Shown piece after piece: positions 8,981 through 35,948 of a DNA stretch of 49,415 nt (position 1 is its first letter; every line of letters starts with the position of its first letter). The notes beneath the pieces were generated by a model. That model searched no databases and had not been told where the DNA came from. It saw only the letters and a program-made list of their open reading frames with translations. This stretch comes from a virus, in IMG/VR virus record IMGVR_UViG_3300025872_000082, positions 1 to 49,415 of that record; one strand, given 5' to 3'. A program made the position numbers and the translations under genes.

Positions 8981-9982
8981 ATGTTTATAGTCTTAGAAGG
9001 TGCAGACGCTTCAGGTAAGAGCACCCTTGCAGAAGAGATCAAAAGCCAACTTAAGCGAGCTAAGCCTGGCGCCGACGTAGAAGAGTTTCACAAAGGCAAG
9101 CCTGAAGAGCTTACCCGCAGGTGGGCACTTCATGAATACGCTGTAGCCATTGAAAGCATCGACTGGACGAGTCGTGTTGCCGTGTCAGATAGGTGGCACT
9201 GGGGCGAGGTAACATACGCGCCGATCAAGCGACCCGAGACGTGCAAGGACGAGTACGGTCTTCTTGGAGTAGCCGGCTGGCGCTGGGTAGAGCTATTCCT
9301 CGAGTCACGTGGAGTAGCGCAGTTCTGGGTTTATCAGCCTCTTGAGGTCATCACCGAAAGAATCAATAGTCGCGGCGATGACTTTGTCGATGCGCATGAA
9401 CTTGCCGGCATTCTCGATAGGTATGAGTTTGGGTACAACAAGGCGTATGGCGTAGAGCTAAAAGTCACCATACCAGACGGAATAAACTACGTTAAGTACG
9501 CCGCAGACGCTATAATTGACGCTGCGACAAAAAAGTCAAAGGCAGCGGAACCACTTTCTAAGTTCCCGATGTACATCGGACCAAGGTGGCCACATTCGCT
9601 TCTTATCGGCGACAAGAGAAATGACCCGACCGAGACGATTCTCCCGTTCATGCCTATCAACGGAAACTCAGGCGACTACCTTCTTTCGTCACTCCCTGAA
9701 GCAAGTTGGCGAGCCTGTGGCATCATCAACTCAGACGACTTTTCAGAAGACTCGCTGAACGATCTTTTAGAAGTCCTCGGTCAGCCAAAGATCGTAGCGC
9801 TTGGGAGACTGGCAGAAAAGAAAATTCGCCAGTGCGGCTTGGACGATGACAGGTACGTCGTTCTCCCGCACCCGCAGTACGTCAGAAGATTCCATCATCA
9901 GGACCGCTTCGAGTACGGGCAGGCGATTACAAGTTTTGTCTACAATAGAGATGAAAGGTACACGCATTGGATACTTCCATAA
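8981..9982 (+). CDS. Deoxynucleotide kinase fused to a UDG-like domain
   Basis: This is a 333-residue two-domain protein. Residues 1-190 form a thymidylate-kinase-like P-loop kinase with Walker A GADASGKST (7-15) and an SDRWHWGE segment matching the family DRxxxS-type motif. It would phosphorylate a deoxynucleoside monophosphate or possibly a modified base. Residues about 200-333 resemble the uracil-DNA glycosylase fold: LLIGDKRND, then FMPINGNSGDYLL, then IVALGRLAEKKI, then LPHPQYVRRFHH, in UDG-superfamily order. Classic UDG catalytic residues are not obvious, so this half may bind rather than cut. It is followed by an overlapping TS-family gene. A typical dTMP kinase is about 210 residues, so the C-terminal half is clearly extra. 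Confidence 0.75.
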   Translation: MFIVLEGADASGKSTLAEEIKSQLKRAKPGADVEEFHKGKPEELTRRWALHEYAVAIESIDWTSRVAVSDRWHWGEVTYAPIKRPETCKDEYGLLGVAGWRWVELFLESRGVAQFWVYQPLEVITERINSRGDDFVDAHELAGILDRYEFGYNKAYGVELKVTIPDGINYVKYAADAIIDAATKKSKAAEPLSKFPMYIGPRWPHSLLIGDKRNDPTETILPFMPINGNSGDYLLSSLPEASWRACGIINSDDFSEDSLNDLLEVLGQPKIVALGRLAEKKIRQCGLDDDRYVVLPHPQYVRRFHHQDRFEYGQAITSFVYNRDERYTHWILP

Positions 9983-10827
9983 AATCCATTCACATCGAGG
10001 ATGCTGTCAACGGGTACGTCGATCTTGTTAAGCACGTTCTTGACAACGGCAGACCGGCTTCTCCACGAGGTTTCAACACCTTAGAGATAGAAGATGCCGT
10101 CATTCACATTGACAATGTATTTGCTGCTCTCCCGCTTGGAGTTGGCCGCGGCACAGTGCCGGGCATTGGTGCCGTTGAGGCGTGTCAGCTTCTTGGTGGA
10201 GTAAGCACTCCAGAAACTGTCATCGCCGTCGGCCCGCAGTTTAAGAACTACGCTGAAGACAACGGAATATTTCATGGAGCGTATGGACGTAGAACAAACG
10301 GTCAGTACGACTACGCCATTGAAAAGCTGAAAAACGACCGAGACACTCGGCAGGCAGTTGTCACTATTTGGAACCCGGAATACGACAACCAAGAAGGCAA
10401 GAAAGACTACCCCTGCACGGTTCTTCATCAGTTTAGGATCAGAGATAACAAACTAAACATGAGCGTATACATGCGCTCGAACGACGTGTGGTTGGGTGCA
10501 GCGTATGACTTCTTCCAATTTACAAGGGTCCAACTTGCGATGTGCAGTGTGCTTGCTGTTGAGCCTGGTACATACGCTCATCATGTTGGGTCGTTGCACA
10601 TTTACGAATCAAATTATTCTGCGGCAGATAACCTCAAGAAGACCGACAACGTTGAGAACGTTCCGCCGATCTATGGCGATTCGTGGGACGAGGTGAAGGA
10701 TTCCGCGATAGCGATTCTTAACTCGGTGAAAGATCATAGCATACTAAATTCTCTTTCTCCGCAGGAGCGGTGGTATGCTAGTTCTATGATTACGGCGATC
10801 GAAAAGAACAAAAGAAAAGAGGCGTGA
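9967..10827 (+). CDS. Thymidylate synthase family enzyme, possibly dCMP hydroxymethylase
   Basis: This 286-residue protein transfers a one-carbon unit from methylene-tetrahydrofolate to C5 of a pyrimidine nucleotide. The TTG start follows AAAGG at 8 bases and overlaps the previous stop by 16 bases. Family residues visible are the nucleophile Cys150 (DYPCTVLHQF), the phosphate-binding RS at 170-171, and His211 and Tyr213. The position that is Asn177 in E. coli TS is Asp181 here (LGAAYDFFQF). In known enzymes Asn at this site selects dUMP, and Asp is the hallmark of T4 dCMP hydroxymethylase. The usual SRR phosphate motif reads TRQ. I therefore favour a dCMP-directed enzyme but cannot exclude dTMP synthesis. 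Confidence 0.85.
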   Translation: MDTSIKSIHIEDAVNGYVDLVKHVLDNGRPASPRGFNTLEIEDAVIHIDNVFAALPLGVGRGTVPGIGAVEACQLLGGVSTPETVIAVGPQFKNYAEDNGIFHGAYGRRTNGQYDYAIEKLKNDRDTRQAVVTIWNPEYDNQEGKKDYPCTVLHQFRIRDNKLNMSVYMRSNDVWLGAAYDFFQFTRVQLAMCSVLAVEPGTYAHHVGSLHIYESNYSAADNLKKTDNVENVPPIYGDSWDEVKDSAIAILNSVKDHSILNSLSPQERWYASSMITAIEKNKRKEA

Positions 10828-11015
10828 TGAGCGGCGACTGGGACGACGACTACTCCTCACCGATGAAGGAAGCCGCGGTAAGCATGCACGAGATGTACCT
10901 CACTCTGCGTGAAGCTGGTTTTTCTAGACGTGACGGGCTAGAGCTTATTGCAAAAATGCTAATCACAGGCATCGCAGAGGCCTCGATAGAAGACGACGAA
11001 GATGACGAAGATTGA
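10827..11015 (+). CDS. Small acidic hypothetical protein
   Basis: This protein has 62 residues from ATG 10827, which overlaps the preceding TGA by one base; a GTG three bases upstream is possible. The middle is a predicted amphipathic helix pair (AVSMHEMYLTLREAGF, LELIAKMLITGIAEA) and the tail is very acidic (EDDEDDED). It is translationally coupled on both sides to nucleotide metabolism genes. Function unknown. Confidence 0.6.
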   Translation: MSGDWDDDYSSPMKEAAVSMHEMYLTLREAGFSRRDGLELIAKMLITGIAEASIEDDEDDED

Positions 11016-11497
11016 TGAACGATACAAGACCGTCCTGGGATGAAACATGGCTTGCCATAGCCGAAACTATTGGCCTTAGGTCTCGTTGTTCTCGCGCGCA
11101 ACTTGGCGCCGTAATCGTTTCTAGAGAACAAAGAATATGCGCCACTGGGTACAACGGGCCTGCCGCCGATTGGCCTGAATCTGGGACGTGCAGCCAGTGG
11201 TGCCCAAGAGCACGAGGAGAGGCGCCGCTCGACAACATGTACGACGCTTGTCCAGCAATTCACGCTGAGGCGAACGCTCTACTGTACGTCGACCGTTCAA
11301 GCGTTGCCGGCGGGACGTTGTATGTGACAAGCGCTCCGTGTATGCAGTGCGCGAAACTGATAACGAACTCCGGACTTGCTCGAGTAGTCTGTAGACTGCG
11401 ATCAGCAGATCTCCACCGTAGGCCGTATGACGTGTTTGAGTATCTCAAGAAGTGTAAGATAGAGCTAACAGTAGTTAAGGACAACGACGTTGAGTGA
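11015..11497 (+). CDS. Deoxycytidylate (dCMP) deaminase
   Basis: This 160-residue zinc deaminase would convert dCMP to dUMP. The CDA-fold signature is complete: His83 and Glu85 in AIHAEANAL and the PCMQC zinc pair (Cys109, Cys112). The insert between the first strand and the HAE motif, with GYNGPAADWPESG and two extra cysteines, is the arrangement of dCMP deaminases rather than cytidine deaminases. It lies one base after the small acidic gene and overlaps the polymerase start by 8 bases. T4 carries the same activity next to its dCMP hydroxymethylase pathway, which fits the context here. Confidence 0.88.
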   Translation: MNDTRPSWDETWLAIAETIGLRSRCSRAQLGAVIVSREQRICATGYNGPAADWPESGTCSQWCPRARGEAPLDNMYDACPAIHAEANALLYVDRSSVAGGTLYVTSAPCMQCAKLITNSGLARVVCRLRSADLHRRPYDVFEYLKKCKIELTVVKDNDVE

Positions 11498-13313
11498 CAA
11501 CGATCTTTCGAACGTACAACTTCATCTTGTAGACAGTGTCGAGAAGGCGCAGAACTTTCTTCATTGGCTCGGGCAAAGAAGACCGTACAACGCTATCTCA
11601 GTAGATACGGAAACAGGTGAGCTACCGGGCAATCCACGAGATCATGCGCTATCACCGTGGCACGGCCGTCTTCGCCTCGTGCAGGTTGGCGACGGCGAAC
11701 AAGGGTGGTCTATCCCTTGGGACGAGTGGTCCGGAGTTTTCTACGAGGCCATGGACAAGTTTGATGGCCCACTGATTTGTCACAACATCGCATTCGAGGC
11801 TCGTTGGTTTGATGTTCAGTCTCGATGGGACATCCCATGGCACCGCGCTCACGACACGATGATCATGGCTCACGTTGTAGACCCGCTTGGGTCGGGGGCT
11901 CTTAAGCGTCTTGCAGCTCTTCACGTCGACAGCCGAGCCGTCGCTTTGCAGGAGACACTTGACGTTGAACTCGCTAAGAACGGTTGGACGTGGGGAACTG
12001 TCCCGACGAACTTCACTCCATATTGGTCATACGGTGCGCTTGACTGTGTTCTAACCACTCGTCTGTGGGAGATGTTCTACAAGCAGTGTGGACCAGAAGG
12101 TCCGTATCAGCGCGCGTACGAACTCGAGATGGCAACACGCAAGATCGTTACCCGCATGGAGATCAACGGCGCGCGTGTAGATCTTGACTACTCTCGAAGA
12201 AAGTATGACGAACTTACCGCATACACCGAGTCTGTAAAGAAGTGGGCACGTGACACGTATGGTGGAGTGTCTATCACCAGCAACGTTCAACTAGTTCGTT
12301 TGTTTGAATCGCTTGGCGCGGAGATTACAGAGTTTACTCCAACCGGACAGAAGTCTTGCACAAAGGATCAGTTGAAGATTCTTATGAGAGACGGGAACAC
12401 TGAAGTCTCGTCACTTGCAGACACAGTTCTTAAGCAGCGTAAGGCTGACAAACTTGCCGGAACATATTTCTCTAACTTTCTTACCGAGTCCATCGACGGT
12501 ATAGTTCACCCATCTGTGAAGACACTCGGCGCTCGTACATCGCGTATGTCGATCACCAATCCCGCGCTACAGACGTTGCCTAAGGGCGACGACGTAGTCC
12601 GTCGTGCGTTCATTCCTAAGGACAAGGATCACGTGATTATCACGAGCGACCTTGACCAGGTCGAGTTCCGCATGTTCGCCAGTCTGTCAAACGACAGCAA
12701 CCTAATCAATCTGTTCCACCTCGCCGATGCTACAGGCTCTGACCCGTTCACCGAGATCGGCCGTGAGGTGTACAACGACCCGACGATGCAGAAGTCTGAC
12801 AAGCGTCGAGGCCTCATCAAGAGCATGATCTACGGTCGTCTTTACGGAGCCGGCGTCGCAAAGCAGGCGTTGACCGCAGGAGTCGCCGAGATACAGATGA
12901 AGCAGACATCGGACGCGTTCGATAACAGATTCCCAGGAATGTCCTACTTCCAGAGACAGATAGAAGACATCGGGATGAGAAGACTGAAGGCTGAAGGTCA
13001 GGGGTACGTCTACACCTGGACAGGTCGTAGACTGCCGTGCGACGAAGGCAGAGTCTACACGCTGGTGAACTACCTCATTCAAGGTGGAGCTGCCGAGGTG
13101 TTCAAGTCAAATCTTGTAAAACTTGACCAGGCAGATCTTACAGAGATGCTGATCGTTCCGGTGCACGACGAAATCGTGCTACAGGCGCCCCGTGAGGACG
13201 CTGAGGAGATCAAGCAACTTGTCAAGCAGTGCATGACCACAACCGAGGGCTGGGCCGTGCCTCTTACCGCAGATGTAGACGGTCCGCTTGAGACCTGGGG
13301 CGACAAGTACTGA
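11490..13313 (+). CDS. polA: Family A DNA polymerase with 3'-5' exonuclease
   Basis: This is the replicative DNA polymerase, 607 residues, without the 5' nuclease domain of bacterial Pol I. Exonuclease motifs are DTETGE (near 39), HNIAFEARW (near 98) and YGALDCVLT (near 180). Polymerase motif A is DLDQVEFRM (near 387), motif B is KRRGLIKSMIYGRLYG (near 438) and motif C is VPVHDEIVLQ (near 556). The aromatic residue of motif B is Tyr, as in T7 polymerase, rather than the Phe of E. coli Pol I. Translation begins at TTG 11490 inside the end of the deaminase gene, with a TGATG overlap to the next gene. Confidence 0.95.
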   Translation: MSDNDLSNVQLHLVDSVEKAQNFLHWLGQRRPYNAISVDTETGELPGNPRDHALSPWHGRLRLVQVGDGEQGWSIPWDEWSGVFYEAMDKFDGPLICHNIAFEARWFDVQSRWDIPWHRAHDTMIMAHVVDPLGSGALKRLAALHVDSRAVALQETLDVELAKNGWTWGTVPTNFTPYWSYGALDCVLTTRLWEMFYKQCGPEGPYQRAYELEMATRKIVTRMEINGARVDLDYSRRKYDELTAYTESVKKWARDTYGGVSITSNVQLVRLFESLGAEITEFTPTGQKSCTKDQLKILMRDGNTEVSSLADTVLKQRKADKLAGTYFSNFLTESIDGIVHPSVKTLGARTSRMSITNPALQTLPKGDDVVRRAFIPKDKDHVIITSDLDQVEFRMFASLSNDSNLINLFHLADATGSDPFTEIGREVYNDPTMQKSDKRRGLIKSMIYGRLYGAGVAKQALTAGVAEIQMKQTSDAFDNRFPGMSYFQRQIEDIGMRRLKAEGQGYVYTWTGRRLPCDEGRVYTLVNYLIQGGAAEVFKSNLVKLDQADLTEMLIVPVHDEIVLQAPREDAEEIKQLVKQCMTTTEGWAVPLTADVDGPLETWGDKY

Positions 13314-13633
13314 TGAATCGCTACCTTGAAATGGCGCTTGGGGTCGCAGCGAAGAGCAAGTGCCGCCATAAGCACGGATGCGTCGTCGTAAGAAACGGAA
13401 AAATCGTCTCAACGTCGACAAACAAAAAGATCGGCGATCCGAAGACAGCGTGGCGGGTGTCTCATGTTCATGCTGAGTTTGCCGCTATCACCGCGGCAGG
13501 CAACCTGGCCGTCGGTTCTAACGTCTACGTTGCCAGAATTGCGGCAGACGGGTCGCCGGCTCCGTCAAAGCCGTGCAAGAAGTGCGAAAGTATACTACTA
13601 AGGTCGGGAGTGTCTAGGGTGGTTTGGACATGA
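13313..13633 (+). CDS. Small CDA-fold deaminase
   Basis: This 106-residue second deaminase has His53 and Glu55 in HVHAEFAAI and zinc ligands Cys88 and Cys91 in SKPCKKCE. It lacks the long insert of the dCMP deaminase two genes upstream, so its substrate may differ (free nucleoside, base, or modified nucleotide). It overlaps the polymerase stop by one base and the next gene by 4 bases. The length matches minimal single-domain members of the family. Confidence 0.75.
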   Translation: MNRYLEMALGVAAKSKCRHKHGCVVVRNGKIVSTSTNKKIGDPKTAWRVSHVHAEFAAITAAGNLAVGSNVYVARIAADGSPAPSKPCKKCESILLRSGVSRVVWT

Positions 13634-18379: not shown

Positions 18380-19588
18380 ATGAAGATTTTAATGACAGGG
18401 TTCACGGCTCTTCAAATCAATACAGAGCACAGAACTATTAAAAAGATCGACGTGCCAGCGTCGATCGTTGAAGCTCTTGAAAGCGTCGGCCATCAGGTAG
18501 ATTGGCGACGCGTCACACCAGGTGAAGATCTATCGTCGTACGACGTAATCTGGGTCAACCTTGGACCCTTGAACTCTCTTAACGGCCGCCAGGGCGCTAT
18601 GGGCGCGCTGTACGCACTCAGCTCCGGTATCCCGGCTGTTGGGTTCTTTGATGACTGGCAATTTGCCGCCGTGTTCAACGCGTGCCGTTCACTTGTTCGC
18701 CACCCGGAAATCCTATACAAGTATCTTCTGTCTGGGTCATCGGTTCGTGGAGACGAAGGCGCAACGTACTTCTCAAAGGCTGAAGCTGACGCGGCACTGG
18801 AAAGAATCATTGCCGCTAATCCCGATGCTGCAAAGAAGTGCGCCGTCGGTAGATACTTCTTTAACGACAACGACGACAACATCAAGGCGCACGAAGGTCA
18901 GTTGGTGCAGACAGCCCAGGCTCTTCTAGGCGAGCGCTGGTCGTATGGCATGGTTCCAGTGTGCCCGATGTACTCGTTTGGTGACCGTTCATTGGTCCGC
19001 AAGAGAATGCCCGCCGAGATGGCCGGCATTGAGGCGCTAGACCCAAGTTCAACGATCTTCAATATCCTGTCGTCAGCCGAGCCGCTCCCTCCGTCTGAGA
19101 AAAAGCGTGCCTGGGTTCTCGGGGCGCTTGTGCCGCACGACACTTGGCTCGAAAAGAAGAATCCAGATTGGCCTGTAGAGATCGTAGGAAGCCGAAAGCT
19201 AATTAGAAAGTTCGGTGGGCAGCGTTTTGACACAGAGGAAGACGTTCTTTCGTTCTACAACGAATACTGGGGAATTCTTTCACCTCCGTATCCGCATGCC
19301 GGCTGTGGTTGGTGGAGAAGCCGATTTATGTACGCCGCTAGGGTGAAGTCTATTCTTGTTACAGACAAGGGAGAAGGAAAGCCGCTCGGTGCGCCATACT
19401 CGTTGACAATCAAGCAGGTTGAGTCGATGTCAGACGACGATCTGGCTGGTGCGGCAAACGCACAGGCTGACACACTTCGTTCACACATGCCGACATACGA
19501 TTCATTTGTTGATCACTGCAACAGGATCGTTCATCGTGCGCTGAATGAAGACAAGGGACTGAGGATCAATCCAGACGGTAGCAGGTAA
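18380..19588 (+). CDS. GT-B-like glycosyltransferase candidate 1
   Basis: This 402-residue protein reads as a two-Rossmann GT-B fold. The N-terminal half has MKILMTGFTALQ, IVEALESVGHQVDW, YDVIWVNLGPL and LSSGIPAVGFFDDW. The C-terminal half has ILSPPYPHAGCGWWRSRFMYAARVKSILVTD, written here as overlapping pieces ILSPPYPHAGCGWW and RSRFMYAARVKSILVTD, in the position of the GT-B donor-binding loop. It shares this layout with the next gene. It follows an AAGGA at 9 bases. Its place between an SSB-like gene and an NTP pyrophosphohydrolase, rather than among tail genes, suggests DNA base glycosylation. Substrate is inferred. Confidence 0.6.
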   Translation: MKILMTGFTALQINTEHRTIKKIDVPASIVEALESVGHQVDWRRVTPGEDLSSYDVIWVNLGPLNSLNGRQGAMGALYALSSGIPAVGFFDDWQFAAVFNACRSLVRHPEILYKYLLSGSSVRGDEGATYFSKAEADAALERIIAANPDAAKKCAVGRYFFNDNDDNIKAHEGQLVQTAQALLGERWSYGMVPVCPMYSFGDRSLVRKRMPAEMAGIEALDPSSTIFNILSSAEPLPPSEKKRAWVLGALVPHDTWLEKKNPDWPVEIVGSRKLIRKFGGQRFDTEEDVLSFYNEYWGILSPPYPHAGCGWWRSRFMYAARVKSILVTDKGEGKPLGAPYSLTIKQVESMSDDDLAGAANAQADTLRSHMPTYDSFVDHCNRIVHRALNEDKGLRINPDGSR

Positions 19589-20601
19589 TGAAGTCAATTG
19601 CCATCTCTGGTATGACCGCCTCTCAGGCGTCGTACAGATCGTTTCATCACCGCGCGAGCTTCATAGGCTGCGTTGCTTCAATGTTGAAAGACAACAACGT
19701 TGCCGTGCACTTTATAGAGCCAAGCGTTTTGCTAAAGAAAAGTGATCTCGATCAGTACGACTCTGTGCTGCTCGGTGTGGCTCCTATTCTTAGTATCTCC
19801 GCAAACAAGGCGTATGGAATTCTGCACATGATCAATCTGCTAAAAAACGATAGCAGACTTAGACTATTCGTAGACGCTCCAGAACCCGCTAAGATAGCCG
19901 CAAGCCTACGCGCCATCGATAAAAACAACGATGACATCGTCAAACAGTTCTACTCGGGTAGAAAGCAGTATTTAGACGTAGTTGGCAATAAAAAGATTCT
20001 TGAATCCACGCTAGGTGGAGTAAAAACTCTTTTTTCTCATTGGGACTACGTTACCTTGTATCCGAGTAGCCCGTTTGTAGATTCTCAGGTTGTTAAGGCG
20101 CAGCTCCCATGCACAGATGTTTCTGCGGTTCTTCCTGTAGAAGTAGACAGTGCTCTTATCTCGTCTGAGATAGGCTCTACAGCAACGTCAAGAAGTAGAC
20201 GCTGGGTAGTTGACAGCATGAACTCAAGGTGGTTCAAGTCTCTACAAAATACTCTTGGTAATTCTGCTGTTCAGATGAAAAGCAACAGACTGTCAACTGA
20301 CTCAGACGTAGAAAAGATGATGCTCGAGTCTCAGGGGTCGATTCTAAGCGTACAAGATGACGGAATGCTCTGGTGGAGCTACAGAATGTCGCAGGCGATG
20401 AACTCTAGAACTCCAATAGTAAGCGACTGGAAGATTACGTCTATTCTTGGAGATTCTTGGTCGTTGCTGCCAGCAAACGTAGAGGAAATGGATTACGTTG
20501 ATATCTACGAACTATCGGTGGCACAGCGGAAGCGCTACACAGGCGCTCTTATGAACGCACAAGACACTATACACACACTAAAGAATGGATTAGGGCTGTG
20601 A
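19588..20601 (+). CDS. GT-B-like glycosyltransferase candidate 2
   Basis: This 337-residue protein parallels the preceding gene. The N-terminal half has MKSIAISGMTASQ, YDSVLLGVAPILSIS and LRLFVDAPEP. The C-terminal half has QGSILSVQDDGMLWWSYR, then MNSRTPIVSDW and a final helical segment AQRKRYTGALMNAQDTIHTL that matches the end of its neighbour. The two appear to be divergent paralogs. It starts at the last base of the previous stop codon and overlaps the next gene by 4 bases. Sugar donor and acceptor cannot be read from sequence. Confidence 0.5.
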   Translation: MKSIAISGMTASQASYRSFHHRASFIGCVASMLKDNNVAVHFIEPSVLLKKSDLDQYDSVLLGVAPILSISANKAYGILHMINLLKNDSRLRLFVDAPEPAKIAASLRAIDKNNDDIVKQFYSGRKQYLDVVGNKKILESTLGGVKTLFSHWDYVTLYPSSPFVDSQVVKAQLPCTDVSAVLPVEVDSALISSEIGSTATSRSRRWVVDSMNSRWFKSLQNTLGNSAVQMKSNRLSTDSDVEKMMLESQGSILSVQDDGMLWWSYRMSQAMNSRTPIVSDWKITSILGDSWSLLPANVEEMDYVDIYELSVAQRKRYTGALMNAQDTIHTLKNGLGL

Positions 20602-21083
20602 CAGACAAGGTGCTATTTGGCAAGTGGCTAGAGAAGACTCGTCAACTGCAAACAGATGTGTACAACGTCGACTACTCGTCGTTTCATAGCGACGAGCATG
20701 ACGATCTGAGAAACCTTATCGAGTACATCCGTTGGAACATGCTGGCGATCGACGACGAGCTCGCTGAGGTCCGTAAGGCCATCTCGTGGAAGCCTTGGCA
20801 GCACGATGACCCGTACGCCGATCGCCACGAGATCCTCAAGGAATGCGTTGACGTTCTGCACTTCGTTGCAAACATTCTTTGCGCCGCCGGCGCGACGGAC
20901 GAAGAACTTGACGCTGAGTATCTGGCTAAGATGCAGAAGAACGCTGATCGCCAAAAGAACGGCTACAGAGTTCTTGACAGTGGTGTCAAGTGCGCCCAGT
21001 GCTTCAGAGCTCTTGACGATTATGACGTCAACTCATGCCTTGAATCGTCGTGCCCGCAGCAGACATCAAAAGGCGGGTCATGA
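20598..21083 (+). CDS. All-alpha NTP pyrophosphohydrolase (MazG/dUTPase-2/dCTPase class) with Cys-rich tail
   Basis: This 161-residue protein contains the class signature ExxE-x24-ExxD: Glu54/Glu57 in DELAEV and Glu82/Asp85 in KECVDVLHF. These helical enzymes cleave nucleoside triphosphates to monophosphates; the class includes MazG, dimeric dUTPase and T4 dCTPase. The last 35 residues hold a possible zinc site (CAQC then CLESSC). The GTG start overlaps the upstream stop. A dCTPase role would fit a genome with substituted cytosine, but dUTPase is equally possible from sequence. Confidence 0.75.
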   Translation: MTDKVLFGKWLEKTRQLQTDVYNVDYSSFHSDEHDDLRNLIEYIRWNMLAIDDELAEVRKAISWKPWQHDDPYADRHEILKECVDVLHFVANILCAAGATDEELDAEYLAKMQKNADRQKNGYRVLDSGVKCAQCFRALDDYDVNSCLESSCPQQTSKGGS

Positions 21084-22431: not shown

Positions 22432-23673
22432 ATGAGCAATCCGACGTTTATCGACTGTAACGGCCTCGCCGGTTTTATGAGCCTTGGCTTTGTAAGATCC
22501 GGCATCGACATGAAGGTCAGAACTGGCACTCTCAACTTTGGAAACCCCGTCGCCGAGGTAAACAGAAAACACCTCGGTAACGAGTGGACGTCTTTCTTTT
22601 CTGAAGATCCAAATGATTGGCCTGACATGAGCGCCGACGTCGTGCTTGGTTGCCCTCCGTGCTCCGGATGGTCGCTGTGGTCGGGTCCAGCAAACAGAGG
22701 TCCTGACGCCAAGGCGCACGAGCACACACGCGCGTTCATGAAGTACGCCGCTAGAATCAAACCAAAGATGGTTGTGTTTGAATGCGTACAGCAGGCGTAC
22801 ACGCAGGGTCGTGCGGTGATGAACCAATACCGCGACATGCTCGAGGAGCTGTCAAACAAGAAGTACGACCTATATCACGTCAAGCACAACAACCTTATGC
22901 TTGGCGGTTTCTCGTATCGTATGCGCTACTTCTGGGTAGCCGTTGAAAGCGGTATGCCTTTTGGTGCCCACGCGGAGATGCCAAAGGAAATGCCCAAGAT
23001 GATCGACGTGATCGGTGACCTTGAAAATCTTGAGATTACCTGGAACAAGCAGAAGTACAACGCTGAGCCGTCGAAGTTTGTTGCAAACCTGAGAAACCAA
23101 GACGGTTACGTCGACGGCCACATGAACAGAACAAACCTCGAGTCACAAAGAATTCAAGAGATCTTCGACATCCTCGGAAACGAAGGATGGAAGCCTATGG
23201 ACGCTTTGAACGTCGCTCTTAAGGAAGCCGTCGAAAAGAACGGAAACAGGTTCCCGCAGTCTTGGGCGACAAAGGAAGAGAAGATTCGCCTGAACGACTT
23301 CTACATGGGATTCTCACTGCCAGCCCGCTGGGACGCTAACTCATTCTGTCACGTCATGACCGGCAGCGCTCTTGATCACATCGTTCACCCGACGCAGCCG
23401 CGCCGTATCACTCACAGAGAAGCCGCAAGAATCCAAGGTCTTCCCGACGACTGGGAATTCGTAAGCGTCAACAACTACTCGGCTCTTGGGGCGACGTGGG
23501 GTAAGGCAGTCGCCGTGCAGGCGGCAACGTGGATCGGCGAGGCAACTGCCGCTGCCCTTAACGGCCAGCCAAACGGACCGCAAGGCGAGTTGATCGGCGA
23601 ACGCGAGTGGCTTTTGGACACTGACAAGGGATTTAGCCGTAACTTCGTGAAGAAGAACTTCTACCAAGAATAA
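22432..23673 (+). CDS. DNA (cytosine-5) methyltransferase
   Basis: This 413-residue enzyme has C5-methyltransferase motifs in order. Motif I is FIDCNGLAGFMSLGF (5-20). Motif IV is GCPPCSGWS with nucleophile Cys77. Motif VI is VVFECV (near 125), motif VIII is RMRYFWV (near 165), motif IX is RRITHREAARIQGLPDDW (near 325) and motif X is GATWGKAVAVQAATWI (near 355). Motifs I and X deviate from the textbook DxFAGxGG and GNAV forms. No restriction endonuclease or TET/JBP oxygenase gene is visible nearby. It would methylate, or otherwise alkylate, cytosine in phage DNA, perhaps to evade host restriction. Confidence 0.88.
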   Translation: MSNPTFIDCNGLAGFMSLGFVRSGIDMKVRTGTLNFGNPVAEVNRKHLGNEWTSFFSEDPNDWPDMSADVVLGCPPCSGWSLWSGPANRGPDAKAHEHTRAFMKYAARIKPKMVVFECVQQAYTQGRAVMNQYRDMLEELSNKKYDLYHVKHNNLMLGGFSYRMRYFWVAVESGMPFGAHAEMPKEMPKMIDVIGDLENLEITWNKQKYNAEPSKFVANLRNQDGYVDGHMNRTNLESQRIQEIFDILGNEGWKPMDALNVALKEAVEKNGNRFPQSWATKEEKIRLNDFYMGFSLPARWDANSFCHVMTGSALDHIVHPTQPRRITHREAARIQGLPDDWEFVSVNNYSALGATWGKAVAVQAATWIGEATAAALNGQPNGPQGELIGEREWLLDTDKGFSRNFVKKNFYQE

Positions 23674-24361: not shown

Positions 24362-24712
24362 ATGAAAGATTCTAGAATTGGTGAATCTCTCTGGGTCGAA
24401 TGGTCTGGAGAAGACTACGACTCTTTTGACAGAGATCTAGCGACGTTTTATACTGTAGGTCACGTAGACCTTGAGAACGACGTAGTAAAAAGAGCTCTTG
24501 CATCTGCCCTACAGAGAGACGGTATCGCCGTCTCGCTGGGAGAAGGGTATAAGCTTTTAGACGGTGCCACTGCAATGCTCGGATACGCCGGCTGTGTTGA
24601 TGGTGACACCGACATGACAATCTGCGCCCAGGACGGCGAGACACGCGACGGAGATGACGTTGACGAAGTTCTCGAGGTGACCTGGGTGGAGATTCAATGC
24701 CAAAAGGTGTAG
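24362..24712 (+). CDS. Acidic hypothetical protein
   Basis: This 116-residue protein starts at ATG 24362; a GTG at 24338 is an alternative but overlaps the proposed -10. It is rich in Asp and Glu with a DGDDVDEVLEVTWVEIQ tail and no recognised family. It overlaps the WhiB-like gene by 16 bases, which suggests co-expression. Confidence 0.6.
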   Translation: MKDSRIGESLWVEWSGEDYDSFDRDLATFYTVGHVDLENDVVKRALASALQRDGIAVSLGEGYKLLDGATAMLGYAGCVDGDTDMTICAQDGETRDGDDVDEVLEVTWVEIQCQKV

Positions 24713-25182
24713 GCGACTTTGAGTGGATGGACGAAGCTGAATGCGGCAAACGTAGCAACAAGCACATGTCGTCTTACTTTTTCTCCGCTGTTCCGCGAGA
24801 AAAATATGACGCTAGAAACCTATGCTTTCAATGTGACGTCCGCAAGGAGTGTCTAAAGTACGCTCTTGAAAACAAAGAAATCTGGGGAGTCTGGGGCGGA
24901 AAGGACGAGGCAGAGATTAGAAGAACTCTGTCATTGTCGCACGAAGGTAAGGAAATACGTAGAACAAGATTTCCAAACTGCCCATACTGTGGAGCTCGTC
25001 CAGTAAAACTTTCTGTAGTCGTCGCGCCGTCGCCTGAAGGCGGGCGTTGGACAACAATGAAGCTTGTTAGATGCTCAGAATGCGAGTTTACGTGGAGAAG
25101 TCGCACGAGCGCAAACGCTGTAACCGCATATCATGCTTCTCGTAAGAAATCTGAAAACGAGAAGAAAAAGAAAAAAGACTAG
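24697..25182 (+). CDS. whiB: WhiB-like Fe-S regulator with C-terminal zinc ribbon
   Basis: This 161-residue protein has the WhiB signature of Cys16, Cys43, Cys46 and Cys52 followed by GVWGG (64-68) and a basic helix EIRRTL. WhiB proteins are actinobacterial 4Fe-4S transcription factors, and phage copies can alter host development and superinfection. Unusually, residues 95-129 add a second site CPYC...CSEC of zinc-ribbon type, and the C-terminus is Lys-rich. A standard WhiB is 80-120 residues. It converges on the minus-strand fibre operon with a 4-base overlap and no obvious terminator. Confidence 0.85.
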   Translation: MPKGVGDFEWMDEAECGKRSNKHMSSYFFSAVPREKYDARNLCFQCDVRKECLKYALENKEIWGVWGGKDEAEIRRTLSLSHEGKEIRRTRFPNCPYCGARPVKLSVVVAPSPEGGRWTTMKLVRCSECEFTWRSRTSANAVTAYHASRKKSENEKKKKKD

Positions 25183-25322
25183 TTGTCTTCTTTGCTTTGA
25201 AGCGCCCTGTTCAATGCGTCTACAGTCGCTTCTAGGATCGCGATCTTCTGCGCTTGCTGCGCTATCTGGTTTGTAAGACTTAGGACGATCTTGTCGATGT
25301 CAAGTTCTAGGTTATCTGACAT
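25179..25322 (-). CDS. Small coiled-coil protein
   Basis: This 47-residue protein begins MSDNLELDIDKIVL and has a continuous heptad-like region (LTNQIAQQAQKIAILEATVD) likely to form a coiled coil. Its ATG overlaps the TAA of the glycosyltransferase gene by one base (TAATG), so it is translationally coupled. It is the last gene of the fibre operon. Function unknown; a small fibre trimerisation or assembly factor is only a guess. Confidence 0.6.
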   Translation of the reverse strand: MSDNLELDIDKIVLSLTNQIAQQAQKIAILEATVDALNRALQSKEDN

Positions 25323-26119
25323 TATCTATTCTCCGTCTGTTCATTTAGTTCTTCAAATCTGCTGTCTATCATATCACTGTACTTCGAAGAAATCTTGATC
25401 ACGAGGTCTTGAATTAGCGCGTTTCTCTGCCTTTGTGCAGTTGAAGGTCCGATGTGCTGCTTGTATAGAAGTTTATTGATGTGAAGAAACTTTGTCTCAA
25501 GAAACGTTCTTACAACAAGTTCGTAGTCGTCGGCAACTACGTACGCCGGGTTGTGACCGTTGAGTTTTCTGTACACGTCTGCTCGCCACGCTCGAACATG
25601 ATTAGGCGCAGACACGATGTGCTTCATCGTCGTCGGATTGATCTCTGGTGCTGACATCGCCCAGACGCCATGTTCTTCAGACCAGTAGTCGCTGCCGTAT
25701 CCAAATCCCCAACCTTCTGGGTATCGACCGGAGTTGCCGTCGGGGAGGATTTCGCACCAGTCGGAGTAGACAAACCCTACATCCGGATTCTCATTAAATG
25801 CATCGTTAATCAGTTGAAGCGCATCGGGGGTTAATTCGTCGTCGTGGTCCAATTCGACCAGAATGTCACCCTTAGCAACCATGAAACCATTCCGCTTCAC
25901 CTCGCCGATAGAGCCGGAATGAACATGCGAACGATGCATTTGAATCCTGTACCGTTCATCGGAGCAGAAACCGTAGATTTGCCGCCAGGTTTCGTTATGC
26001 GTGGAGTCATCCCACACAACCCATTCCCAGTCCGTGAATGTTTGTGACTTAAGGGAGCCCCATGTCCGGGCCAGAATGTCCTGCGACGTATTATACGTCG
26101 GTGTGATTATTGAAATCAT
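25322..26119 (-). CDS. Family 2 glycosyltransferase
   Basis: This 265-residue GT-A enzyme has MISIITPTYN, VKRNGFMVAKGDILVELDHDDEL with the DHDD metal-binding motif near 92, and a later VVADDYELVVRTF acceptor-side motif, all typical of GT2. There is no membrane segment, so it probably acts on a soluble protein or a nucleotide-linked acceptor. It follows the oxygenase directly, with ATG adjacent to its TAA. Modification of fibre proteins encoded upstream in the same operon is a reasonable inference; host surface glycan change is the alternative. Confidence 0.85.
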   Translation of the reverse strand: MISIITPTYNTSQDILARTWGSLKSQTFTDWEWVVWDDSTHNETWRQIYGFCSDERYRIQMHRSHVHSGSIGEVKRNGFMVAKGDILVELDHDDELTPDALQLINDAFNENPDVGFVYSDWCEILPDGNSGRYPEGWGFGYGSDYWSEEHGVWAMSAPEINPTTMKHIVSAPNHVRAWRADVYRKLNGHNPAYVVADDYELVVRTFLETKFLHINKLLYKQHIGPSTAQRQRNALIQDLVIKISSKYSDMIDSRFEELNEQTENR

Positions 26120-26764
26120 TTATTCTGCCTTGTGCACATGGAACTCAACTGGATTGCAGACCAGGAATGAACTAAGAATGAGTTTTTCAGATGAAATTGG
26201 AACAAGCGCTTCATGTGGGTACATCCATGATGTTGGAAACAGCACAATTGCTCCCTTTTGTGGCTTGACTTTTAGGTCCTGATAGCGAAAGTACGTTTCT
26301 CCACCTTCATCAACTGTATTGATGTAACACAAAATCGCGGCAACTCTGTTGAACACATTGAATGACCATTGCTCGCCATCGATGTGCTCTTTGTAGTAGC
26401 CCTCATTCTTCTTGTACATTTGCCATAGATACCCAGTATCTTCAATATTTGGCGCAGTTGATAGATATTGAAAATTATCTAGGTAATCAGTAATTGTTGA
26501 TTTGATTTCCTGATAAATTTTTTCGTCAATAATCTGACGTTCTTTAAGAATCTCTCCCTCATTGATGAAATTCTTATTGACATCTTGGTCAAGAGTGTTT
26601 TTCCATTTGACGTTGTCTGGGCCAGATGATTGTCCGGAAATGGTAATTCCTGGAGACGACTTGTGGAGATTATTGAAATAGAAATTCCATATTTCATCAC
26701 ACAGTTCATCGGAGAGTCCATTTTCGTAATATGCAATACCCTGATGTATAAATTTTGCAGTCAT
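26120..26764 (-). CDS. 2-oxoglutarate/Fe(II) oxygenase, prolyl 4-hydroxylase-like
   Basis: This 214-residue double-stranded beta-helix oxygenase has a HxD...H...K iron and 2OG site. His-Ile-Asp occurs in YYKEHIDGEQW, the distal His is in YPHEALVP, and the 2OG-binding Lys is in SSEKLIL. The LCYINTVDEGGETYF stretch is typical of P4H-type enzymes. It would hydroxylate Pro or another residue. It lies in the same operon as a collagen-like fibre. There is no export signal. The AT-richer base use of this stretch differs from the replication genes. Confidence 0.85.
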   Translation of the reverse strand: MTAKFIHQGIAYYENGLSDELCDEIWNFYFNNLHKSSPGITISGQSSGPDNVKWKNTLDQDVNKNFINEGEILKERQIIDEKIYQEIKSTITDYLDNFQYLSTAPNIEDTGYLWQMYKKNEGYYKEHIDGEQWSFNVFNRVAAILCYINTVDEGGETYFRYQDLKVKPQKGAIVLFPTSWMYPHEALVPISSEKLILSSFLVCNPVEFHVHKAE

Positions 26765-30896: not shown

Positions 30897-33800
30897 TTAC
30901 ACCATTACGAACTTCTCAAGTTTGGCTGTTACATTAGTAGTTGCTGCATCGCTTGCGGCAACAAGCAATCTAAAGTTTGGTGCTGAGTAATCTGCTGTTA
31001 CGGAGACACCACTTATTGCACCACCCGTTTCAATGACGGCATATTCGACATAGTCAACGTCTGTGCCAGCGCTATTTGGATTAACAAGAATCTTAGAGAG
31101 CCTTCTCTTACTTCCTTGCGTAAGCCTCAACGTATACTCAATAGCGAGAGTTCCGCTAGCGGTTACGGAGTCAACGACGGTCGCGGTACTGTTTGTTGTG
31201 ACTGTATTGTCACCGTTTTCTCCAGTTACTTGGAAGGAGTCGCCCATTACGGCAGCAGGTATTGTTCCAGAAAGGTTTCCTGCCGTCAGGTTCGTGAGGT
31301 TTGCTCCCGAGACTGCACCGAATGAGCCAGACCAGGTTCCTGAAGTGATTGTTCCAACCGAGGTAAGACTCGACCCCGTGACTCCAGAACCAAGAGTTGT
31401 AGAACTAAGTACCGACGTTCCATTGATGTAATACGCTTTCCCTGATGCAAGGTTGAGATGCTCAGAGGAAGTCCAGGCATCTGTTGCGTCAACCCAGTTA
31501 AATGTCTTATCTGACGCACCCTTGAGAGTTATACCTCCGCCATCTGCTGCTGTGTCAAGCGTATTGTCCGCGCCAAGAACGATGTTCTTGTCGTCAATGC
31601 TCAATGTTGTCGAGTTGATCGTTGTGGTCGTGCCGTTGACCGTCAAGTTTCCGGCAATCGTCACCGTGCCAGACGAGTTTCCAATATTTAGTGTTGTCGC
31701 CGCTCCGGCAAAGTTTATAGTTGTTGCCGTCGTATTGATTAAGTCAAAAGAGGCAGAGGAGGTGGTAATACTGGTGCTAATTGAGGGCGATAATGCAAAT
31801 ACAAGGTTTCCAAGCCCTGTGGTCCCAGATATTAGTGTGCGTAATTCGGTTGGTGTCGTGCCAGATGCAAACTGAGCAAGGGTTCCAGTCGTTAGTGCAA
31901 CGTTGGTAATCGCTCCACTATTTCCATTTACCGTAGTAACGCCAGTTGTTGATGTCAGATATGTCGCTGTGTCTACGCTCCAAGTCCCGGCGCCGTTAGT
32001 CTTAAGGAAACCTGAAGTTCCAGTTAAGGCGGCGATCGCAGAAAGATCTGCGTCGTACGCTTGAACGTTTGTTCCGATAACAAGACCTAGTGTGGTCTGC
32101 GCGGCGCTTGCGTCGGCGTCGTCAACCAAAGAACGACCAAACGAGGTAAATGTTGCCAATGACGCCGTTCCCGAGCCCGTAAAGTACGGCAACCTATCTG
32201 CGGCACTGGTCAGCCCGGCGATGGCAGCAAGTTCTGCGTCATACGCCTGAACGTTAGTTCCGATAGCAAGACCGAGGTTGCTTCGTGCAGTGGCGACGTC
32301 CGTCGCTCCGGTTCCGCCGTTAGCTACCGCGATAGTTGTTCCGTTCCACGTTCCGATCGCGATCGTCCCGACGGAAGTCAAGCTCGAGTTAACAACGGTT
32401 GAGTTAAGCGACGTACCGGTAAGCGTTCCGGCTGCTGCAGTTACTGTTTGCGCGCTGGCGCTTGTTAAAGATACAGATGTTCCATTAAGTGAAATGCTCG
32501 TATTTGACAAAGATATTGTCGCGTTTGAGCCTTCACCTGGAGTGTGCGAAACTGAAATTCCAGTACTGGCGGTAACGTCAGAAACGTAGTTTCCAGTGGT
32601 GTCTGTTCCTAAATTGATGGGGTCGTTAACCCAGGAGCCAGCGTTGTACTTAAGAAAGTCACCAGTTACTGGACTTGTCAACGCGACATCAGATAGATCG
32701 TCGATCGAGCCCGTAGGTCCGGCAGGGCCTTGCACTCCTGTCGCGCCTTGTGGTCCCTGTGCGCCTTGAGCACCTGTTGCACCCTGCGGACCTGTTGAAC
32801 CTTGCGGTCCAGTGGATCCTTGTGCGCCTTGTGGGCCCGTGTCGCCTTGAGGACCAGCGGGTCCTTGTGCCCCGGTTGCGCCCTGCGCGCCATTTGCGCC
32901 TTGCGGTCCAGTAGCTCCTTGCGGTCCGGTGTCACCTTGCGGTCCAGTGGATCCCTGTGCGCCTTGCGCACCCTGCACACCTGTTGCGCCCTGCGGCCCT
33001 TGTGGCCCTGTATCTCCCTGCGGACCCTGCGGACCGGTGGCTCCTTGTGGGCCCGTAGCACCCTGCGGCCCTTGCGGGCCAGTGTCGCCCTGCGGGCCGT
33101 CAAGACCTTGAGCGCCAGCAGCACCCTGTGCACCTTGAGCACCTTGCACTCCCGCTGCGCCTTGCGGTCCGGTGTCACCCTGCGGACCTTGTGCACCTGT
33201 TGCTCCTTGTGCACCGGTGGCGCCTTGAGCACCTTGCGGACCGACATCACCTTGCGGGCCTTGTGAACCGGTTGCGCCTTGTGCACCTGTTGCTCCTTGT
33301 GCACCGGTGGCGCCTTGAGCACCCGCGTCGCCTTGTGGTCCTTGTGCTCCGGTCGCGCCTTGCGCGCCCGTTGCTCCTTGCGCGCCTTGCGCTCCGTTTG
33401 CACCTTGCGGCCCTTGTGCTCCTGTCGCGCCTTGTGCCCCTTGCGCGCCGACGTCGCCAGTGCGAGCAAAGGTAATAACGATACTTTCACCGTTACTGAA
33501 CGAAGACGCCGAGCCAGAGACATATGAACATTCGACGTCAAAGAAGCCCGTCTCCTCGGTGACCGCTGAAATTGTAAACACCGCAAAGTCAGAAGAGTCG
33601 CTCTTATTGGAGATGCGGAAGTGACCTTTCATCGTACTCGTTGAGTCGTCGATTGTTCTCAGGTACGATTGAATGTCTGTTGAATTGGCGTCAACGTCAT
33701 CAATTTTTAGTTCTGAAGCAAGAGTGATGTCTGAGTTGCTGAACTTAAGTTTTCCTGCGCCGGGGTCAGTGTGCGCCGTGTCGGTATCAAAGACGTATTC

Positions 33801-35948
33801 AAAAGTAACGCCACCAAAGTTTCCTTGCGCACCTTGCGGGCCTGTGGCTCCTTGTGAACCTTGAGCGCCTTGAGCTCCTTGAGCACCTTGCGGCCCTGTA
33901 TCGCCTTGCGGCCCTTGTGCACCAGCGGCCCCTTGTGAACCCTGCGCGCCTTGAACGCCCTGTGCACCTGTTGCGCCTTGGGCACCTACATCACCTTGCG
34001 GACCTTGCGGTCCAGTTGCCCCCTGTGCTCCTTGAGCGCCTGTTGCGCCTTGAGCACCCGCGTCGCCTTGTGGTCCCTGCGGACCTGTAGATCCTTGTGC
34101 TCCTTGTGACCCCTGCGGCCCTGTAGCGCCTTGTGGCCCAGCGTCACCTTGAGGGCCAGCGTCACCTTGAGGGCCTTGTGCGCCTGTTGCTCCCTGCGGG
34201 CCGACGTCACCTTGCGGGCCTTGCGCGCCCTGAGCTCCAGTTGCACCCTGCGCTCCCGTATCTCCCTGCGCGCCTGTTGCGCCTTGAGCGCCTGTAGCAC
34301 CTTGCGGCCCTTGTGCTCCTGTAGCGCCTTGCGGGCCGTCTACACCTTGCACTCCTGCTGCACCTTGCGGGCCTTGTGACCCAGTTGCACCTTGAGCACC
34401 TTGAACACCTTGAGCGCCTTGCGCGCCTTGCGCACCTTGCGGTCCTGCTGCGGTGGCGGGAGCAAACTTTGTTCCGTTAAACACTAATGCCTGGTTTGTT
34501 GTAGCGCCTGTCGTGTCGATCTCGATGCTGTCAACTGTAAGAGTTGATGACGACAATGCGCCGGTCACGTTCAGTGACGAAGCGTTGCGGGTTCCGTCAG
34601 CAAGCAGGTACTGAGTATGGTCGTCATCAGAAAGACCAGTAAGCGAACCATGGTCAGAGACTGGTGTTGCCGGAACGCCACCAAGAGGAATGCTTACTCG
34701 CTTATCGACAACCGAGGTGATGCGAGCGTTTGGTGTATTTACATAAGCGCTGGCTGTTTGGTAAATGATCTTATAGAGAGGTCTAAACTCAACAACAGGA
34801 AATCCACCAAGGTCCATCTGCTCCCATGTAACTGCTTCTGCTTCACCTTGGGTGTTGTATTCTGCCTGACCTAGCACACCTATGATCGGGTTACCAAGAT
34901 TATTTGTAGCGGTGATCCATGTGATACCGAATTTGTTGTTACTAATGTCGGTCGTCGACCAAGTGCCTGCGGTATTTAAGTTGTATTGAACGAGAGATGT
35001 CCCCTGTTTCATTGGGAACTGTGTCGCTGTGTCCGTGCGCCAGTGATTATTAAGACGATAGAAAACGGGAATGTAAGCGCCACCCTGTAGTCGCTGTTGC
35101 CACGTATTTGCGGTCGGGGATGCGGAGTGCGTGATGTCTACCTGGAGGTCCTCATCAAAGAAGGTTCCGTCGGCAATATCAATCTTTGCATGAGCATCAA
35201 GTGAGCCGTCGCCAGTTGTGGTGTAGTTGTTGGCACCAAATCCATTGGCAATTGCGGCACCACGGGTTCTATGAAGATACTCATGTGTTGCCCAGTCAAG
35301 AACAATTCCATGTCTTTCGTCGGCAAAGAAATACGCCTTGTTATCTACTTCGTTCCAGTAAACATACGCTGTAGGCGTGTCGTTTTCCCAATCAAAAAAC
35401 GTCGTGCTGTAGGAAAGTTCACCTGTATTATCGTAGTGAATATAGTAAAGACCACTGGTGTCAGGAATGTCTATTGTTTCCGTAGTGGTTTTTGTAAACT
35501 TGACGCCTTTACACCAGACCTCAAAAGAGCCAGACACTGGTGCGATCGAGAATCTACGGTTGCCTTCATCAAAAGAAATAACACTCTGTGTTTTGTCCGT
35601 GTGTCCGATCGGCTCGCCGCCTGGGATGTTGACAGGAGCTGTCCCTGGCGCAAATTTTGTTCCATTGTAGACAAAAGTATTTCCAGTAGCGGCACCTGTC
35701 GTGTCTACCTCAATACTGTCTACGTAGAGAGCGGGAACCTTAAGTGTATCGTCGGTCTTAAGCGTGTTTGCTGAGTCACGGTATAGATTTGTGTCAACAG
35801 CGTTTGTGCCATCTCCCCAAGTAATCCGACCGCCAGCATCAACGGCCAAACGAGGATTTGACTCATCCTTGATGCCGACCTCGATTGCAGCATTGCTTTC
35901 ACTATTGAAATAGCGAGCACGCAATAGATTAAATAGTTTGAATGACAT
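30897..35948 (-). CDS. Giant collagen-like tail fibre protein
   Basis: This protein has 1683 residues. Residues about 1-500 form an N-terminal attachment and shaft region. Gly-X-Y repeats dominated by GPQGAQG, GATGAQG and GDTGPQG occupy about 502-705 and 830-1083, separated by a non-collagen domain of about 120 residues. Pro lies almost always in the X position. The C-terminal 600 residues contain repeats seen in phage fibres ([20 protein letters not shown], and [18 protein letters not shown] twice). It should form a long trimeric fibre. The operon also encodes a prolyl-hydroxylase-like enzyme and a glycosyltransferase that could modify it. Confidence 0.88.
32700..33470 (-). repeat. Collagen-type Gly-X-Y coding repeat, block 2
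   Basis: Nine-base units coding Gly-X-Y triplets, mainly GAQ, GPQ and GAT, run without break. Repeat length makes copy-number change by slippage or recombination likely. Confidence 0.9.
33826..34450 (-). repeat. Collagen-type Gly-X-Y coding repeat, block 1
   Basis: This is a second block of the same Gly-X-Y units, upstream in the gene. Both blocks share long near-identical stretches, so intragenic recombination between them is possible. Confidence 0.9.

Follow-up and report, generated by a model that had tools for sequence, protein, structure and literature searches.

A candidate cytosine hypermodification pathway around a thymidylate synthase homolog in a freshwater virus record

The window analysed here, a 49,415-base virus record from IMG/VR (IMGVR_UViG_3300025872_000082), carries a block of genes which we read as a pathway that probably replaces the cytosine of the phage DNA by glycosylated 5-hydroxymethylcytosine (5hmC). 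At its centre lies a homolog of thymidylate synthase (TS) whose sequence marks it, with high confidence, as a predicted deoxycytidine monophosphate (dCMP) hydroxymethylase. The presence of 5hmC in virion DNA appears likely to us, and glycosylation of this DNA by two candidate glycosyltransferases, GT1 and GT2, appears fairly probable. These grades, like those given below for other readings, are judgements and were not computed. Homologies, diagnostic residues and conserved gene order were read from sequence; from these we infer the activities, the order of steps, the sugar and the modification of virion DNA.

The TS-family enzyme

The TS-family gene (9967-10827, +; 286 amino acids, TTG start) matches PF00303 at E=6.6e-23, and its assignment draws in addition on residue classes and on a tree. 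The key residues of its product are E71, Y106, R128, D147, C150, T151, R170-S171, D173, D181, H211 and Y213. Those on which the TS fold depends are present, namely the catalytic Cys, the Arg/Ser phosphate site and the equivalents of Glu58 and Tyr94 (E71, Y106, R128, C150, R170 and S171 aligned). A first-pass annotation of this DNA had singled out an Asp at the site of Asn177 in E. coli ThyA; residue 181 is indeed Asp (codon 10507-10509, +) and aligns with Asp179 of T4 gp42. Asp147 (codon 10405-10407, +) is the equivalent of T4 gp42 Asp145 and is of the hydroxymethylase type, synthases having Leu or Ile there. Thr151 occupies the position of E. coli His147, and the protein ends in NKRKEA, without the C-terminal tail of the synthases.

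To define residue classes, the window protein was aligned with members of the TS family whose chemistry is known or has been inferred. In thymidylate synthases, represented by those of E. coli, T4-type td, T5, phi3T and Xenomorph, position 177 is Asn, position 147 is His, Met or Val, C-3 (three residues before the catalytic Cys) is Leu, and the C-terminus forms a hydrophobic tail. Enzymes of 5-hydroxymethyluracil (5hmU) phages (SPO1, a ViI-like phage and M6) combine Asn177 and Asn147 with Asp at C-3, and those of phages with modified cytosine (T4, CC31, VPE25 and AXL3) combine Asp177 and Thr147 with Asp at C-3; neither group has the synthase tail. The window protein (D147/T151/D181) belongs to the last, tail-less class, referred to below as D/T/D, together with gp42 of T4 and CC31 and the enzymes of VPE25 and AXL3. 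The same residues were found in 34 of 34 intact relatives scored.

These positions have an experimental and statistical background. Cytosine specificity of T4 gp42 is set by Asp179, and the D145N variant loses much of its activity and its detectable dCMP binding (PMC6400193). In a metagenome association study, positions 177 and 147 were the two most linked to cytosine modification, and contigs with modified cytosine were marked by Asp177 together with a residue other than His at 147 (PMC8670742). VPE25, a D/T/D phage of Gram-positive bacteria with a beta-glucosyltransferase (beta-GT), has glycosylated cytosines according to bisulfite and restriction tests (PMC4999554). In place of Lys133 and Ala176, which favour cytidine monophosphate (CMP) in the CMP hydroxymethylase MilA, the window protein has the dCMP-type pair Arg128/Ser171. 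Since the changes that switch MilA from CMP to dCMP (Lys133 to Arg, Ala176 to Ser) correspond to this pair, dCMP is the expected substrate.

A maximum-likelihood tree of the TS superfamily, suggested earlier as a check, leaves the window protein outside the thymidylate synthase clade (98/96) and groups it with Gordonia phages (99/96).

Asp181 taken alone as proof of cytosine use was dropped in favour of the residue set, as Microbacterium phage Lynlen and Pseudomonas phage PaMx74 also have Asp at this site. The Asn/Asp switch, which the first-pass annotation had used as its marker, thus holds as a member of the set but is not diagnostic by itself. The Lynlen homolog (NC_073446; L053:408-1316) combines Ile at C-3 with a tail like that of the synthases, is encoded near a dihydrofolate reductase (DHFR) gene, and is possibly a dCMP 5-methylase, a candidate source of 5-methylcytosine (5mC) DNA. 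The PaMx74 homolog (L049:495-1391), with Asp177, Pro147 and Asn at C-3, stands outside all three classes; its gene has a pyrophosphohydrolase gene on one side and a dCMP deaminase gene on the other.

A homolog of T4 gp56

An all-alpha pyrophosphohydrolase of the deoxycytidine triphosphatase (dCTPase) class had been proposed within the same block, and the product of 20598-21083 (+) bears this out. It matches PF08761 (E=3.7e-12) and aligns with T4 gp56, a dCTPase and deoxyuridine triphosphatase (dUTPase), with 29% identity over 136 columns by BLASTP (E=1e-13, a single comparison) and an hhalign probability of 97.6. Their homology extends across about 110-135 residues and takes in the DDE..E core, HFV.N and the RQ.NGY motif with which T4 gp56 ends. 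The nearest solved structures are dUTPases, so the window protein is a predicted dCTPase that may have dUTPase activity or a preference for dUTP. T4 requires gp56 to exclude deoxycytidine triphosphate (dCTP) from its DNA. The presence of a gp56 homolog would therefore indicate a wholesale rather than a sporadic replacement of cytosine.

The glycosyltransferases GT1 and GT2

GT1 (18380-19588, +) is a glycosyltransferase of GT-B fold and a candidate 5hmC-DNA glycosyltransferase, with homologs in Gordonia and T4-like phages. GT2 (19588-20601, +), GT-B-like and a candidate second glycosyltransferase, is its paralog, since the profiles of the two match each other; the open reading frames (ORFs) of GT1, GT2 and the pyrophosphatase overlap or abut. 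Searches of Pfam and of sequence profiles of solved structures gave no match for either protein, and fold comparison was used after these. With the AlphaFold model of GT1 (predicted local distance difference test, pLDDT, 72.9; medium confidence), fold comparison to the PDB gave 14 matches of E<=1e-3, every one a glycosyltransferase of the GT-B kind (SenB, PglA, MshA), and T4 beta-GT (1bgu) matched at E=9.6e-3. For the GT2 model (pLDDT 90.7), the best PDB match, among GT-B enzymes, has E=1.9e-3 and T4 alpha-glucosyltransferase (1xv5) E=1.1e-2, and viral proteins annotated as glycosyltransferases match GT2 with E-values down to 1e-5. Fold comparison thus backs the two GT-B-like proteins recognised at first pass, GT2 more weakly than GT1.

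Membership of GT1 and GT2 in the T4 alpha- and beta-glucosyltransferase families was rejected. PF11440 and PF09198 had no match in the relative genomes and none in window GT1, with PF09198 positive as a control in T4, CC31 and VPE25 and PF11440 positive in T4. What GT1, and apparently GT2, share with the T4 enzymes is the GT-B fold class, in structural matches at E ~1e-2. Of the parallel to the T4 route of glucosylated hydroxymethylcytosine (hmC) that had been drawn before, cytosine hypermodification stands as the best reading, whereas glucose is unsupported.

In the T4-like phages Aes012 (Aeromonas) and FBB1 (Erwinia), a gene for uridine diphosphate (UDP)-galactopyranose mutase is immediately followed by a GT1 homolog, and PF09198 and PF11440, both found in T4, were absent from the two genomes when searched for. 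Each has two TS-family genes, the second of Aes012 (gp42) being D/T/D. That a member of the GT1 family takes the place of the T4 glucosyltransferases in these phages is, as we infer, the best evidence that the GT1 family acts on hmC DNA.

Conservation of the cassette

As far as each contig extends, the 33 viral contigs retrieved with the TS protein keep the gene order kinase, TS, deaminase, polymerase, GT1, GT2 and pyrophosphatase. Among contigs found through GT1 that have room for the respective neighbour, GT2 is present in 68 of 68, the pyrophosphatase in 60 of 60, a homolog of C5-cytosine DNA methyltransferases (C5-MTase) in 41 of 41 and an upstream TS-family enzyme in 27 of 27, each time with D/T/D. 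Since all of these contigs come from a single lineage, they do not count as independent observations; the gene arrangement is not due to chance. In one relative contig (L038), TS and GT1 are each split into two ORFs, perhaps by assembly errors.

Besides the T4-like phages above, the culturable Gordonia phages GodonK, Sixama and GMA2, with Gordonia malaquae and G. terrae 3612 as hosts, were looked at as independent cases. All three have a D/T/D enzyme in the order kinase, TS, deaminase, as in the window, and GT1 homologs; Sixama encodes in a row GT1, another glycosyltransferase, a GT2-like protein, the pyrophosphatase and the C5-MTase homolog. They differ from the window in a TS homolog of about 31-36% identity, in the further glycosyltransferase in the middle slot of Sixama and in a ThyX that GMA2 adds, so that the TS homolog of GMA2 need not make thymidine monophosphate (dTMP).

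UDP-galactopyranose mutase and the sugar donor

The nearest annotated genome is that of Actinomycetia phage DSL-LC01 (OQ999401, 129 kb), with 65% identity in the TS-family protein; it was assembled from a lake metagenome and assigned to Actinomycetia by prediction (PMC10611076). DSL-LC01 carries a UDP-galactopyranose mutase gene between GT1 and GT2, and relatives of this mutase in seven further contigs adjoin GT1, GT2 or both in six of the seven. Its authors assigned the mutase, as an auxiliary gene, to the cell wall (PMC10611076), in line with the reading of phage UDP-galactopyranose mutases so far as part of cell-wall metabolism (PMC10611076, PMC6630229). The position of the gene favours a role in DNA modification over one in the cell wall.

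The slot between GT1 and GT2 is filled by the mutase, by another glycosyltransferase (Sixama) or not at all, a pattern that points to different sugars in different branches. Galactofuranose is a tentative candidate for the sugar in the mutase-bearing branches. Within the window-type branch, no mutase was found between GT1 and GT2, nor elsewhere in 8 window-type contigs searched, some of them long, and for this reason we do not apply the galactofuranose reading to the window. More generally, and as a conjecture that we hold with some doubt, there could be a widespread hypermodification class in which 5hmC is decorated by a new family of DNA glycosyltransferases (GT1, often with its paralog GT2), with a swappable donor slot. 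Sugars of the galactofuranose type might then conceivably decorate the cytosine of actinophages as well as that of T4-like phages infecting Aeromonas and Erwinia, and the DSL-LC01 mutase would be a DNA-modification gene. Phage RB69 with its arabinosyl-hmC is comparable, as an hmC phage with a sugar other than that of T4 and with candidate donor-synthesis genes of its own (PMC6024577). In contrast, no Escherichia phage is among the organisms with BLAST hits to GT1, and the window has no recognised donor-synthesis gene.

Proposed pathway and its meaning

In the pathway that we propose, the gp56-like pyrophosphatase would convert dCTP to dCMP, by which the normal precursor would be removed and the pathway fed. 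Cys150 of the TS-family enzyme would attack dCMP, and Asp181 would recognise and protonate the cytosine ring; the one-carbon unit would come from methylene-tetrahydrofolate, and water instead of hydride would end the reaction, giving 5-hydroxymethyl-dCMP. The kinase would form the diphosphate and the host the triphosphate, which the phage polymerase would incorporate. The dCMP deaminase would send part of the dCMP to deoxyuridine monophosphate (dUMP) for thymidine triphosphate (dTTP). GT1, and then perhaps GT2, would add one or two sugars to the hydroxymethyl group in DNA; UDP-galactofuranose would be supplied by the mutase in the DSL-LC01 branch, and the window branch would use a UDP-sugar of the host. 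The modification probably shields the phage DNA from bacterial defences.

Glycosylated hmC is known mainly from T4-like phages. Here it would extend to a whole lineage of lake phages, probably actinobacterial, with a different family of sugar transferases. Searches of open-licence papers for hmC in actinophages gave no report of it among the titles and abstracts returned, and no statement on restriction testing of GMA2 DNA was found in the literature on this phage. If our interpretation is right, the block holds new DNA glycosyltransferases and offers a reason why some phages carry UDP-galactopyranose mutase, and the culturable Gordonia phages provide an accessible test system.

Alternative explanations

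Several observations weigh against the proposed pathway. The window enzyme and T4 gp42 both have the TS fold, a nucleophilic Cys followed by Thr, and Asp at C-3 as well as at the site of Asn177, and both lack the synthase tail. However, identity is only about 20% over the alignment, the C-terminus of the window protein is longer and different, and gp42 lies in the tree on a distant, long and separate branch; what we claim is therefore that the enzyme works like gp42, not that it is its ortholog. T4 Ser94, which coordinates the attacking water, is Gly104 in the window. Gly stands at this site also in the enzymes of M6 and the ViI-like phage, so Ser94 is no general requirement of hydroxymethylases; the window protein is still no strict gp42-type ortholog. 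The model of GT1 is of medium confidence, and the PDB matches of GT2 fall short of E<=1e-3. The large relatives showed neither ThyX nor a further TS, and a search for ThyX in window-type relatives gave none, so that dTMP would depend on the host enzyme. Finally, the C5-MTase homolog (22432-23673, +; PF00145, E=5.7e-23) would be without its normal substrate if all cytosines were 5-substituted. This divergent protein, with counterparts at L002:23375-24619 and L061:14117-15415, is fixed beside the cassette. It has an unusual motif I (DCNGLAG), whereas its PPC and RxR motifs are intact and are kept in DSL-LC01, L070 and Sixama. Incomplete replacement, action on host or early DNA, or a different chemistry may account for its presence.

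Stenotrophomonas phage AXL3 bears on several of the alternatives. It resembles the window in its D/T/D enzyme, a kinase with a similar C-terminal domain and a deaminase, and its DNA withstands 35 enzymes whose sites contain G/C, being cut only by those with A/T-only sites (PMC7504290). Unlike the window it carries ThyX, and no GT1 homolog was found when looked for, a further point against our proposal; the protection of AXL3 DNA is therefore no test of the glycosyltransferases. A D-type enzyme with protected DNA in a phage that lacks GT1 would fit a scheme in which 5hmC is made, but GT1 and GT2 act on the cell envelope, tail proteins or another target, leaving the DNA with plain 5hmC or otherwise decorated. 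Phage glycosyltransferases can have other targets, and the purpose of those in GMA2 was left open (PMC4524720). The unbroken, overlapping string of GT1, GT2 and dCTPase in 60 contigs argues against this scheme, as does GT1 standing in for the T4 enzymes in T4-like phages, and we consider it unlikely, though the most serious of the alternatives.

The resistance of AXL3 DNA to restriction could also stem from 5mC, and exchange of Asn for Asp in a synthase yields a dCMP methylase (Liu and Santi 1992, as cited in PMC8670742). A dCMP 5-methylase giving 5mC DNA, like that of Xanthomonas phage XP12, is nevertheless very improbable in the window: the synthase tail is missing, D147 is of the hydroxymethylase type, no DHFR gene was seen in the conserved block, and the adjacent glycosyltransferases need a hydroxyl. 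Annotation of the TS homologs of DSL-LC01 and the Gordonia phages as thymidylate synthase, company of a dCMP deaminase and a kinase, and the failure to find ThyX or another TS in the large relatives would suit an ordinary thymidylate synthase that boosts dTTP. D181, T151, D147, the missing tail and the position outside the TS clade make this hardly credible, and GMA2 and AXL3 have ThyX besides their TS homologs. Nor is it more plausible that the enzyme hydroxymethylates dUMP, so that the DNA would contain 5hmU with sugars attached to it. The window clade does adjoin the SPO1, ViI-like and M6 enzymes in the tree, with weak support (87/72), and the deaminase supplies dUMP, yet in the enzymes of 5hmU phages both discriminating positions are Asn, against Asp and Thr in the window.

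Neighbouring genes and host

The nucleotide kinase and dCMP deaminase that had been described as flanking the TS homolog are both in place. The kinase gene (8981-9982, +), which the TS-family ORF overlaps, encodes a deoxynucleoside monophosphate (dNMP) kinase, predicted to act on hydroxymethyl-dCMP or other dNMPs; it matches PHROG_761 (thymidylate kinase, E=5.7e-16) and, by profile, YorR of SPBc2 (2axp, E=1.6e-8), and 16 kinase orthologs were aligned. An extra C-terminal domain of about 140 amino acids (9548-9979), with conserved GD..N and PHPQ motifs, is shared with AXL3 gp29, with a counterpart at L044:3550-3999. This domain has a weak Pfam similarity to the superfamily of uracil-DNA glycosylases (E=0.007-0.015), and a search against solved structures gave no match. 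The dCMP deaminase (11015-11497, +; PF00383, E=9.9e-19; PHROG_174, E=1.8e-41) starts at ATG 11015, inside an ORF that opens with TTG at 11012. Its fixed downstream neighbour, by synteny, is a family A DNA polymerase (11490-13313, +; PF00476, E=3.5e-55). Past the polymerase, a second, small cytidine-deaminase-like ORF of 106 amino acids (13313-13633) occurs only in the contigs closest to the window.

The virus of the window is a freshwater phage, with actinobacteria as its probable host. It encodes a WhiB-like protein (24697-25182), which we take to be consistent with an actinophage. Bacterial genomes searched for relatives of the window yielded none, and no transfer RNA genes were found in the window. 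On the minus strand lie a weakly glycosyltransferase-like ORF (25322-26119), a 2-oxoglutarate-Fe(II) oxygenase (26120-26764; PHROG_61, E=1e-34) and a collagen-like tail fibre gene (30897-35948), a block that may possibly serve a hydroxylated and glycosylated phage collagen.

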